A DNA stretch of 64,000 nucleotides from Faecalibacter bovis (lineage in GTDB: Bacteria; Bacteroidota; Bacteroidia; Flavobacteriales; Weeksellaceae), in the NCBI RefSeq assembly GCF_017948305.1, contig NZ_CP072842.1:784001-848000 (forward strand), written 5' to 3'. A model generated the notes under the pieces. It searched no databases. It was not told the DNA's origin and saw only the letters and a list, made by a program, of their open reading frames with translations. Below are positions 39,463 to 57,058 of the stretch, piece after piece. Position 1 is the first letter of the stretch; every line of letters starts with the position of its first letter. The position numbers and the translations under genes were made by a program.

Positions 39463-39620
39463 TATATTTTTTTTTGTGTTTGATTATGTTTTGAATTCGA
39501 TTCTAAAAATAATGGATTTTTATTAATTATTTACTTTTATGATATTTCTATTTCATTCCACTCTCTGATTCAGTATTTAAAATTTAACCTGAAAATATTT
39601 GCTAAAATCAAAATCCTTTA

Positions 39621-39628
39621 TACATTTG
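39621..39628 (+). promoter_or_regulatory. Promoter of the trp operon (-7 box, with -33 TTTG)
   Basis: TACATTTG is an exact TAnnTTTG box. TTTG at 39598-39601 lies 19 bases upstream, a good -33 element. The box ends 5 bases before the leader-peptide ATG at 39634, so the leader RNA would start at or beside the start codon. Confidence 0.75.
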
Positions 39629-39633
39629 TCCCA

Positions 39634-39696
39634 ATGAAAACATTATTTACAAATAACTGGTGGTGGAAATTCGAACAGCAAAACGTTGGTTCGTAG
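39634..39696 (+). CDS. trpL: trp operon leader peptide (Trp-Trp-Trp)
   Basis: A 20-codon ORF with three consecutive TGG codons at 39658-39666 (peptide MKTLFTNN-WWW-KFEQQNVGS), stop TAG at 39694-39696. Three adjacent Trp codons in a 20-residue peptide just before trpE are the classic sensor of tryptophan attenuation. Ribosomes stalled there when charged tRNA-Trp is scarce would cover CGAAC at 39672-39676, which otherwise pairs with GTTCG at 39689-39693. The freed GTTGGTTC (39685-39692) can then pair with GAACCGAC (39734-39741) and break the terminator. The promoter box lies 5 bases before the ATG, so the leader mRNA appears leaderless. Confidence 0.88.
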   Translation: MKTLFTNNWWWKFEQQNVGS

Positions 39697-39720
39697 GAGC
39701 GCTATATAGTTATATGTAGA

Positions 39721-39753
39721 AAAAGGCTTGTCGGAACCGACAAGCCTTTTTTT
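39721..39753 (+). terminator. trp attenuator terminator
   Basis: A strong hairpin, GGCTTGTCGG (39725-39734) with CCGACAAGCC (39737-39746), closed by an A4/T4 extension and followed by a T-run. It sits between trpL and trpE and is the conditional terminator. Its loop and 3' arm can pair instead with GTTGGTTC in the leader. Confidence 0.92.
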
Positions 39754-45461: not shown

Positions 45462-45536
45462 CGGGGTGTAGCGTAGCCCGGTCATCGCGCCTGCTTTGGG
45501 AGCAGGAGGTCGCAGGTTCGAATCCTGCCACCCCGA
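45462..45536 (+). tRNA. tRNA-Pro (TGG)
   Basis: A 75-base cloverleaf. Acceptor CGGGGTG pairs with CACCCCG and A is the discriminator; the anticodon stem CCTGC/GCAGG closes the loop TTTGGGA with anticodon TGG; the T-loop reads GGTTCGAATCC. The CCA end is not encoded. It is the first of two identical copies. Confidence 0.95.
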
Positions 45537-45581
45537 CAAATTTTTACCGAAAATTTGATTATCGAAAAAAAACACCTTAAT

Positions 45582-45656
45582 CGGGGTGTAGCGTAGCCCG
45601 GTCATCGCGCCTGCTTTGGGAGCAGGAGGTCGCAGGTTCGAATCCTGCCACCCCGA
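45582..45656 (+). tRNA. tRNA-Pro (TGG), second identical copy
   Basis: Identical to the copy at 45462-45536 over all 75 bases, separated by 45 bases and transcribed together, ending at the terminator at 45663-45694. A tandem duplication of the same isoacceptor. Confidence 0.95.
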
Positions 45657-45662
45657 CGAAAC

Positions 45663-49536: not shown

Positions 49537-49545
49537 GCTACTTAG

Positions 49546-49618
<73 letters not shown>

Positions 49619-49626
49619 ATATTTAG

Positions 49627-49699
<73 letters not shown>

Positions 49700-49710
49700 A
49701 TATTAGACTG

Positions 49711-49718
49711 CAAATATA
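49711..49718 (-). promoter_or_regulatory. Promoter of the first initiator-tRNA pair
   Basis: The minus strand reads TATATTTG followed by CAG, exact consensus, 12 bases before the tRNA 5' end. Confidence 0.65.
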
Positions 49719-49828
49719 CAATGAGATATTTGATTTTATACTATTAATTTATTTTTTTTCGCCACTCTACACTTTTACACAAGCAAAACTGTTAGATATC
49801 AACGAAGTAACTGGTAAAATAAATTTCA

Positions 49829-49864
49829 AAAAAAAAGAGCTTCAATAAAATTGAAACTCTTTTT
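49829..49864 (-). terminator. Terminator of the second initiator-tRNA pair
   Basis: GAGCTTCAAT / ATTGAAACTC: the one change from the first copy (T to C at 49840) turns a U-A into a G-U type pair on the minus-strand RNA, so the stem survives. The U-run is intact. Confidence 0.82.
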
Positions 49865-49873
49865 GCTACTTAG

Positions 49874-49946
<73 letters not shown>

Positions 49947-49954
49947 ATATTTAG

Positions 49955-50027
<73 letters not shown>

Positions 50028-54911: not shown

Positions 54912-54919
54912 TATATTTG
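54912..54919 (+). promoter_or_regulatory. Promoter of the riboswitch transcript
   Basis: TATATTTG followed by CAA, exact consensus; a TTTA at 54887-54890 stands about 21 bases upstream. Transcription would begin just before the riboswitch P1 stem. Confidence 0.7.
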
Positions 54920-54931
54920 CAAAATATTAAC

Positions 54932-55027
54932 GCTCAAAGATTGGGGAATCGTGTGAAATTCACGAGCTGTCGCGCAACTGTAAAATATTTTGTGAAAAAT
55001 ATAAAGTCAGATTACCAATTTATGAGC
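54932..55027 (+). promoter_or_regulatory. Cobalamin riboswitch (B12-binding leader)
   Basis: All conserved blocks of the adenosylcobalamin/cobalamin riboswitch are present in order: GGGGAATCGTGTG, GAGCTGTCGCGCAACTGTAA, a small AT hairpin, and AAGTCAGATTACC. The ends pair as P1: bases 54932-54944 with 55015-55027, with a single mismatch and one G-U pair. TCGCG at 54970-54974 (loop L5) is complementary to CGCGA at 55044-55048 downstream, the expected L5-L13 kissing contact. The next full gene is an acyl-CoA thioesterase, not a B12 transport or synthesis gene, which is unusual. Between them is a 23-codon ORF. No U-run terminator is seen after the switch, so control may be at translation. Confidence 0.9.
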
Positions 55028-55071
55028 TTTTCGATAATGCTTTCGCGATTTGAAGCTAATTCTATTGTTCT

Positions 55072-55143
55072 ATGAAATCTATAACCAACAAACGCCATAA
55101 AAAACATTATCAAATTTTTATTCAAAAAGAAATAACGTGCTAA
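55072..55143 (+). CDS. Small ORF (23 codons) after the riboswitch
   Basis: ATG at 55072 to TAA at 55141-55143, encoding MKSITNKRHKKHYQIFIQ plus KEITC. It is in the same frame as the thioesterase, which starts at 55147, three bases after this stop. It is basic with no signal-peptide core. It may be a translated coupling ORF under riboswitch control, or the remnant of a gene removed from behind the riboswitch. Too short to be sure it is expressed. Confidence 0.35.
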   Translation: MKSITNKRHKKHYQIFIQKEITC

Positions 55144-55146
55144 CAC

Positions 55147-55566
55147 ATGATAATGGAAATGGAAAAAACACAAAGAGAGGAATTAATTGAACAACGTATC
55201 AATGATTCTGAAACCAGAGTTTTTAAAGCAGTTTTCCCTGGAGATACAAACCATCACAAAACAATGTTTGGTGGTGCAGTAATGTATTTAATGGACGAAA
55301 TTGCTTTTATGACAGCTACACGTTTTTGTCGCAAACCTATTGTAACGGTAAGTAGTGACAAAATCGATTTTAAACACTCAATTCCTGCAGGAACTTTAGT
55401 TGAATTCGTAGGAAAAGTTACAAGAGTAGGACGTACAAGTTTGGACGTTCAGATTGATGTTTTTATTGAAAGTATGTACCGTGATGGTCGCGAAAAAGCG
55501 ATTACAGGAACTTTTACATTAGTAGCAATCAATGAAAACAAAAGACCAGTTCCGGTAATTGACTAA
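55147..55566 (+). CDS. Acyl-CoA thioesterase (hotdog fold, YciA/BFIT-like)
   Basis: A 139-residue hotdog-fold protein. It has the motif PGDTNHHKTMFGGAVMYLMDEIAF, where the Asn-His and the downstream Asp form the catalytic face of acyl-CoA hydrolases, followed by the IDFKHSIPAGTLVEFVGKV segment. It hydrolyses medium or long acyl-CoA to free acid and CoA in the cytoplasm. Further ATGs at 55153 and 55159 are possible starts. It is the first full gene after a cobalamin riboswitch, with which no thioesterase is usually associated. It ends before a terminator at 55585-55617. Confidence 0.88.
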   Translation: MIMEMEKTQREELIEQRINDSETRVFKAVFPGDTNHHKTMFGGAVMYLMDEIAFMTATRFCRKPIVTVSSDKIDFKHSIPAGTLVEFVGKVTRVGRTSLDVQIDVFIESMYRDGREKAITGTFTLVAINENKRPVPVID

Positions 55567-55584
55567 TTATTAGAATAAAATTTA

Positions 55585-55617
55585 ATCCTTCACATTAATT
55601 TGTGAAGGATTTTTTTG
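55585..55617 (+). terminator. Terminator of the thioesterase transcript
   Basis: ATCCTTCAC / GTGAAGGAT with a 7-base loop and a T7 tail. It separates the riboswitch unit from tnaA. Confidence 0.88.
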
Positions 55618-55681: not shown

Positions 55682-57058
55682 ATGGAACTACCTTTCGCTG
55701 AACCGTTTCGAATAAAAATGGTCGAAGAAATTTACCAATCTACACGTGAGGAACGTGAACAATGGATTAAGGAAAAAGATTATAACTTATTCAACTTAGA
55801 AAGCCAAAAAGTTTTTGTTGATTTATTGACAGATTCAGGAACTGGAGCAATGTCTGATAAACAATGGGGAGCAATGATGACAGGTGACGAAAGCTATGCT
55901 GGTTCACAATCTTTCCAAAAATTAAAAGCAACAGTAAATAAAATTACTGGATACGAATACGTTTTGCCTACACATCAAGGTCGTGCAGCAGAAAATGTAT
56001 TATTTTCAGCTTTAGTTAAAGAAGGAAATGTAATTCCTGGAAATTCGCATTTTGATACAACTAAAGGTCATATAGAATTTAGAAAAGCACATGCCATAGA
56101 TTGTACAATTGACGAAGCTTTTGATAGCGAATTAATTCATCCATTTAAAGGAAATATCGATTTAGATAAACTTGAAAAAGTATATAAGGAACATGGAAAA
56201 GAAAATATTCCATTTACTTTAATCACAATCACTTGTAATTCATCAGGTGGCCAGCCCGTTTCTGTAGAAAACATTAGAAAAGTAAAAGCTTTATCAGACA
56301 AATATGGTATTCCGATTTTCTTTGATTCTGCTCGTTTTGCAGAAAATGCATATTTCATCAAAGAAAGGGAAGAAGAATTTAAAAATCATACGATCAAAGA
56401 AATTTCTAAAATAGTATTTGATCTTGGTGATGGTATGACAATGTCGTCTAAAAAAGATGGATTGGTAAATATCGGAGGTTTTATAGCACTTAATAATGAA
56501 GAGCTATATAAAATATGTGGTAATTTCGGAATTATTTACGAAGGTTATTTAAGTTATGGTGGTTTAGCTGGACGTGATTTAGCAGCTTTAGCACAAGGTT
56601 TAGATGAAGCAACAGAATATCCGTACTTAAAATCTCGAATTTCACAAGTTGAATACCTTGGAAATAAATTGATTGAATACGGAATTCCGATTCAACAACC
56701 TATTGGTGGACATGCAATTTTTATAGATGCGGTAAAATTTTTACCTAATGTACCACGCGAAGAATTTCCTGCACAAACTTTAGGAATCGAGTTGTACAAA
56801 GAAGCTGGAGTACGAGGTGTAGAAATTGGAACAATCTTGGCCGATCGTGATCCTGAAACTAGAGAAAATCGTTATCCAAAATTAGAATTATTGCGTTTAG
56901 CAATTCCTAGAAGAACTTATTTTCAAAGTCATATGGATTACATCGCGGTAGCGTTAAAAAATATTTTTGATAGACGCGAAGAAATTTCTAAAGGTTACGA
57001 AATTACTTGGGAAGCAGATATTTTAAGACACTTTACAGTAAAATTGAAAGAAAAATAA
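55682..57058 (+). CDS. tnaA: Tryptophanase
   Basis: A 458-residue PLP enzyme that degrades tryptophan to indole, pyruvate and ammonia. It begins PFAEPFRIKMVEEI, typical of tryptophan indole-lyases, and the PLP lysine is K258 in MTMSSKKDGLV. HQGRAAENVLFSAL, TITCNSSGGQP and FDSARFAENAYFI are also intact. Tyrosine phenol-lyase is a close relative; the overall pattern favours tryptophanase, but the two are separated by few residues. No tnaC leader or tnaB gene precedes or follows it. Its presence agrees with indole-positive flavobacteria. It lies in the same window as the complete trp pathway, suggesting opposing control of Trp. Confidence 0.93.
   Translation: MELPFAEPFRIKMVEEIYQSTREEREQWIKEKDYNLFNLESQKVFVDLLTDSGTGAMSDKQWGAMMTGDESYAGSQSFQKLKATVNKITGYEYVLPTHQGRAAENVLFSALVKEGNVIPGNSHFDTTKGHIEFRKAHAIDCTIDEAFDSELIHPFKGNIDLDKLEKVYKEHGKENIPFTLITITCNSSGGQPVSVENIRKVKALSDKYGIPIFFDSARFAENAYFIKEREEEFKNHTIKEISKIVFDLGDGMTMSSKKDGLVNIGGFIALNNEELYKICGNFGIIYEGYLSYGGLAGRDLAALAQGLDEATEYPYLKSRISQVEYLGNKLIEYGIPIQQPIGGHAIFIDAVKFLPNVPREEFPAQTLGIELYKEAGVRGVEIGTILADRDPETRENRYPKLELLRLAIPRRTYFQSHMDYIAVALKNIFDRREEISKGYEITWEADILRHFTVKLKEK

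Follow-up and report, generated by a model that had tools for sequence, protein, structure and literature searches.

Cobalamin (B12) riboswitches commonly sit ahead of receptor genes. In Flavobacterium psychrophilum such a switch is placed in front of a TonB transporter gene (PMC9723704, consulted part), and B12-independent isozymes are recognised targets as well (PMC3766115, in whose main text the word "thioesterase" does not occur). Class I aptamers bind AdoCbl, class IIa aptamers prefer MeCbl or HyCbl, and class IIb is marked by GGAA together with UCU in J6/3 (PMC11260477, consulted part). No description of a link between a B12 riboswitch and a thioesterase was found in the open-licence papers searched, and earlier work may exist elsewhere; judged by their titles, none of the papers retrieved for methylmalonyl-CoA, thioesterase and cobalamin concerned a riboswitch. 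In the 64,000-nucleotide stretch of Faecalibacter bovis DNA analysed here (the window), a divergent cobalamin-type switch lies directly ahead of an acyl-CoA thioesterase gene (TE). What appears to be new is a conserved TE target, found family-wide and beyond, in the company of B12-independent isozymes.

The aptamer, the leader and the thioesterase gene

An Rfam scan of the whole window gave a match to the AdoCbl family RF01482 that covered the full model (positions 1–149) and passed the gathering threshold of 50 bits narrowly (E = 1.3e-6 with the whole window and every family counted), so the cobalamin riboswitch named in the preliminary description was retained (Table 1). Recognition by RF00174 (class I), which that description had proposed as a check, failed, as the score of 28.1 bits fell under the cut-off of 31.5. 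The 13-position P1, including one A-A mismatch and one G-U pair, was found as described, and TCGCG in L5 is exactly complementary over 5 nt to CGCGA in L13. The claim that every conserved block is present proved generous, since J6/3 reads AUUACC where RF01482 has GUCUUU, and there is no P8–P12 arm; in the RF01482 alignment the window shows no long P6 arm. J3/4 is GGAA, which is the only one of the two class IIb features (GGAA in J3/4 and UCU in J6/3) seen in the window. The exact promoter box reported immediately upstream was also found: it fits TAnnTTTG, the Bacteroidota promoter consensus, and its TA..TTTG letters are unchanged in 20 of 20 aligned leaders.

Table 1. Features of the TE locus (window positions)
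Feature	Position	Strand	Basis
Promoter -7 box TATATTTG, fits TAnnTTTG	54912–54919	+	letters; relatives' leaders
AdoCbl-type riboswitch aptamer with P13	54918–55072	+	RF01482, 51.8 bits; own model R1, 110.9 bits (window itself in the R1 training set)
P1, 5′ strand	54932–54944	+	pairs with 55015–55027
P4 hairpin, TCGTG / CACGA	54949–54965	+	both-sided changes in 4 of 5 pairs among 23 sequences
L5 part of putative loop-loop contact, TCGCG	54970–54974	+	letters; invariant in 23 sequences
P1, 3′ strand	55015–55027	+	pairs with 54932–54944
P13 stem-loop, L13 CGCGA at 55044–55048	55039–55056	+	81% of stem cells pair in alignment
Possible start-hiding strand CATTATCA, complementary to TE start region 55148–55155	55105–55112	+	predicted fold
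Acyl-CoA thioesterase (TE), 4HBT hotdog family, 139 aa	55147–55566	+	PF03061 (4HBT thioesterase superfamily), 64.3 bits, gathering 20.6
Intrinsic terminator 3′ of TE	55584–55616	+	hairpin 55584–55611, then T run
Tryptophanase	55682–57058		ORF, profile match

In an alignment of 23 TE-linked aptamers, 93.7% of the cells were paired and 13 of 21 pairs had changed on both sides. The covariation score was 0.383 compared with 0.155 for shuffled alignments, none of 500 shuffles scored as high, and sliding the structure gave at most 0.139; at one core pair, twenty sequences have U-A and three have C-G. Since L5 is invariant in all 23 sequences, covariation does not test the loop-loop contact; L13 departs in two relatives (L078 and L030). 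The figure of only 81% for P13 is partly caused by the alignment shifting this stem. A chance fold was rejected on the E-value of the RF01482 match and on the covariation. We concluded that the window RNA, almost certainly of cobalamin type, belongs as a divergent example to a riboswitch class already known.

The TE-linked aptamers are varied. Those of the window, of Empedobacter and of most Myroides are compact, the Weeksella and Vaginella copies carry GGAA and GUCUUU, and three relatives of genus g28 (L005–L007) have GGAA and UCU in J6/3, both class IIb features. The copy of Myroides indicus has an extra arm, and the aptamers of genus g21 are class I-like with about 165 nt. With lengths from class I-like down to compact, and with different J6/3 letters, they offer a natural series for the evolution of ligand selectivity.

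Between aptamer and TE, the candidate strand of Table 1 is paired with the TE start region in the predicted fold. Compared with shuffled leaders, the start-region complement of the window leader was not significant (p = 0.20), and among 48 leaders tested the best complement beat the shuffles (p < 0.05) in only four. When the 5′ strand of P13 was held single in the predicted fold, the start codon of the window stayed paired. Leaders of the g9/g26 type have a hairpin that overlaps the 3′ strand of P13, and its two varying positions are paired in 20 of 20 leaders (CG 10, TA 8, TG 2; GC 17, AT 3), counts in which many letters are fixed by the search pattern. This hairpin is absent from the window leader. 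By overlapping both the 3′ strand of P13 and the segment that faces the start codon, the helix of the g9/g26-type leaders would allow switching between two states. The window leader also contains a 23-codon AUG frame (55072–55143, + strand) that ends 3 nt ahead of the TE start. In 11 of 13 same-genus leaders an AUG frame of eight or more codons stops no more than 11 nt away from the TE start, and both frame and peptide are poorly conserved among these loci.

The TE product shares 99% identity with a record from Faecalibacter macacae, and its nearest solved structure is 2gvh (E = 6.3e-50). It is not YciA itself, because the YciA equivalog model (NF007970) gave 44.1 bits against a curated cut-off of 162. 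The order TE, terminator, tryptophanase stood as first described; two terminator-like sites were found, one per strand on the same hairpin, where 0.3 were expected. The same divergent upstream gene, switch and TE follow in the same order in all 11 same-genus TE loci of the set obtained by the RF01482 search across 246 family genomes. Within flanks of about 1.5 kb, tryptophanase lies 3′ of TE in ten of these 11 loci (the exception is L009) and in none of nine loci of genera g26 and g28. With the terminator in between and this distribution, tryptophanase was rejected as the conserved target. Elsewhere in the window, a Bacteroidete tryptophan peptide leader RNA (RF01692, 60.8 bits, gathering 49) was recorded at 39614–39732 (+), and two sets of tRNA genes are tandem duplications: four tRNA-Met(cat), forming two pairs of equal score with a spacing of about 328 nt (49545–50027, −), and two tRNA-Pro(tgg) about 120 nt apart (45462–45657, +).

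Distribution of the switch–TE pair

Among the 246 genomes of the GTDB family, RF01482 matched 81 at E ≤ 0.001, ten of them over the cut-off. A covariance model (R1) was built from the 23 TE-linked aptamers and matched 219 of the 246 genomes at E ≤ 0.001; B12 switches that serve genes other than TE are among these matches. A protein search with TE matched 196 of the same genomes at E ≤ 1e-20; the loci examined were the best 150 (149 genomes), with 47 TE-matching genomes outside this list. An R1 match was located 40–296 nt upstream of TE on the same strand at 98 of the 150 loci. The remaining 52 were fetched and scanned, which added 32 with a switch on the TE strand, so that the switch lies directly upstream of TE at 130 of the 150 listed loci (129 genomes). 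None was seen at the other 20, one of which (G155) offered just 309 nt to scan. The linked loci belong to ten genera (g1, g9, g12, g14, g20, g21, g23, g25, g26 and g28). At the loci of Myroides and its relatives (L043–L057) the switch was present at TE in ten cases of 15 and absent in five. R1 training sequences make up 16 of the 130 linked family loci and five of these ten, and their matches are expected by construction because they were part of the training set; RF01482 or inspection by eye had found them first. No switch was found at 12 more distant TE relatives (ten gammaproteobacterial, Xanthocytophaga L071 and the metagenome-assembled L074), and a search of a plasmid collection gave no match.

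TE genes lacking the switch also occur in close relatives, namely L101 (G111), L096 (G127), L045 and L054–L057. L101 has kept the promoter box and the 3′ part of the leader and has lost the aptamer core; judged from these letters, it is apparently a natural deletion of the core. In a tree of 72 TE proteins the switch label clusters, yet at least ten changes are needed; the tree is built on few columns, with good support for 23 of 66 inner branches and few forks resolved. The suggestion in the preliminary description that the thioesterase is truly B12-controlled thus gained a conserved linkage, in 130 of 150 family loci, ten of 15 in Myroides and its relatives, and in other families; as to control itself, this arrangement of sequences makes it very probable that the switch acts on TE.

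Companion targets and B12 enzymes

An R1 search of 395 genomes of the class gave 35 with a match at E ≤ 1e-8; 29 loci were inspected, 27 of them outside the family, and six further listed matches had no locus. TE lies behind the switch in two family members (L192, L202); it also does so in L218 (f40) and L219 (f2), where roughly 100 nt separate the two; in L196 (f21) it lies 389 nt beyond the switch and in L217 (f29) 679 nt beyond, with a 190-aa frame in between. Five loci (L195, L197, L203, L212 and L214) read switch, nrdB, TE. Their longer stretches showed switch-nrdB-TE-nrdA in L221 (f4), L223 (f36), L224 (f10) and L226 and L227 (f3), that is, in five genomes of four families outside the family in which TE was surveyed; L223, L221 and L226 were assigned by profile scans, L224 and L227 by likeness to them. 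The NrdB proteins scored over the Pfam cut-off and below the NCBIfam equivalog cut-offs. At eight other loci metE follows the switch, assigned from N-termini and confirmed in L231. From the nrdB-TE-nrdA and metE loci it follows that TE keeps company with B12-independent isozymes. In L209/L225 (f34) the order is switch-nrdB-nrdA without TE, and at the remaining inspected loci the switch heads other or unidentified genes; TE is therefore not an obligatory member. In L220 (G309, f2; 551–2583) a switch (R1, 104.7 bits) is followed by an NAD-dependent epimerase-like gene and a short protein with a MetE catalytic domain.

The source genome (G000; 2.84 Mb, one contig) has two stronger B12 switches, with RF00174 scores of 110.9 and 108.7 bits. 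One precedes a set of genes that includes cobT and cobS and begins with a gene for a secreted protein; this 366-aa product bears a type IX secretion sorting tail (L235, 6579–7679, minus strand). The other precedes a TonB receptor gene, with BtuB-model scores below the cut-off, and this pair sits 10 kb beyond the TE switch. The genome search found acyl-CoA mutase (three matches) and MetH, and no MetE.

Acyl-CoA mutase is present in 224 of the 246 family genomes; of the 22 negative ones, 20 were named and G086 and G090 deduced by elimination. All 129 switch-linked genomes have it, compared with 16 of the 20 unlinked ones (Fisher p = 2.5e-4, kinship ignored); the four negatives are G052, G066 and G077 (g2) and G071 (g17), so the contrast rests in two genera. 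Outside the family, mutase co-occurrence tells little, because 31 of 32 genomes with B12 switches have the enzyme.

Explanation and comparison with known systems

Considering these results, we propose, with a probability of roughly 55% for the whole, that a compact AdoCbl-type switch represses TE when cobalamin is plentiful and that TE relieves the acyl-CoA load of stalled mutases. Transcription would start from the promoter just ahead of the switch. With cobalamin abundant, ligand binding would lock the four-way junction and the L5–L13 contact, and the leader would then, most likely, hide the start codon, a translational OFF state; with cobalamin scarce, TE would be made. OFF control is expected because the companion targets are genes wanted at low B12, and we regard this polarity as probable; that the pairing is kept in many relatives likewise suggests that TE is made when B12 runs short. 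TE would thus be grouped with the B12-sparing genes metE and nrdAB. Its substrates would most likely be propionyl-, methylmalonyl- or branched-chain acyl-CoA, which accumulate once AdoCbl-dependent acyl-CoA mutases are short of cofactor, and its hydrolysis would return free CoA; this mutase-related role is put forward tentatively, at nearly even odds. The sequences show the RNA, its linkage to TE, the conservation, the covariation and the regulon company; ligand, polarity, start hiding, substrate and role are inferred. The RF01482 match, the linkage, the covariation, the promoter box, the nrd/metE company and the mutase contrast count for this reading, as do the mutase and MetH of the source genome with its lack of MetE, and the recognised status of B12-independent isozymes as riboswitch targets. 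Against it count the narrow RF01482 pass and the RF00174 score under the cut-off, the 20 unlinked loci of 150 and the five of 15 in Myroides and its relatives, L225 without TE, the weak start-hiding statistics and the start codon that stays paired with P13 blocked, and, for the relief-valve part, the mutase carried by 16 of the 20 switch-less TE genomes and a mutase contrast that rests on two genera for a near-universal enzyme.

Hotdog thioesterases act on varied substrates, and TE could serve an OFF switch of the same kind for a purpose unrelated to mutases: it might adjust fatty acids or the membrane, or be tied to the supply of deoxynucleotides or methionine. The five genomes in which TE is flanked by nrdB and nrdA fit this, as do the mutase-bearing unlinked genomes, but mutase is missing in none of the 129 linked genomes against four of the 20 unlinked ones, and the B12 enzymes of the source genome are mutase and MetH; we consider such a purpose less likely than the mutase-related one. 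A switch that prefers MeCbl or HyCbl, or one that turns TE on, appears improbable. The J6/3 letters of the window, next to a GGAA J3/4, depart from RF01482, the ligand preference of class IIa is a precedent, and an activating corrinoid riboswitch has been studied (PMC10653944, consulted part). Set against these are the TE-linked Weeksella and Vaginella copies with GGAA and GUCUUU, the extra arm in M. indicus and the class I-like g21 aptamers, class I being the AdoCbl binder (PMC11260477, consulted part), and companions (cob genes, TonB receptor, metE, nrdAB) that are wanted at low B12.

The preliminary description had also offered a deletion of the target gene, after which the switch took over another one. 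The frequent position of B12 switches ahead of receptors, and the switch–receptor pair retained nearby, would suit an ancestral btuB-type target and a chance capture of TE. That same receptor gene still stands behind its own separate switch, however, all 11 same-genus loci keep the order of upstream gene, switch and TE, and the linkage extends over 130 of 150 family loci and to other families. Because the divergent neighbour is kept in all 11, no receptor gene was lost here; a recent btuB loss with capture was rejected, and a stranded switch is very improbable. Had a capture taken place long ago and been retained since, it would be equivalent to the repressing AdoCbl switch proposed above.

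If that proposal is true, the relief valve would be a bacterial counter-measure against the trapping of CoA when B12 is deficient. The cobalamin regulon of a large bacterial group would gain a conserved target, and the thioesterase would be given a testable role in how B12-dependent Bacteroidota cope with stalled acyl-CoA mutases.

Compared with RF01482, which shares a clan with RF00174, the window RNA agrees in the full-length match, the P1/P3–P6 junction, the complementary letters of a putative L5–L13 contact and the promoter-proximal 5′ leader, and differs in its target, in the J6/3 letters and in the RF00174 score under the cut-off. TE shares Pfam 4HBT with the YciA-type and other 4HBT thioesterases, and its solved relatives (among them 1vpm, 1yli and cytosolic acyl-CoA thioester hydrolase) are acyl-CoA hydrolases. 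The nearest regulatory parallel is the B12-riboswitch control of metE and nrdAB, upstream of which R1 finds the same kind of switch, with TE inside five nrd operons. Unlike the products of those genes, TE is no isozyme of a B12 enzyme and could at most relieve a block; beside MetE and NrdAB it may, though we hold this with some doubt, represent one more type of B12-sparing enzyme among the Bacteroidota, a relief valve for AdoCbl-dependent mutases.
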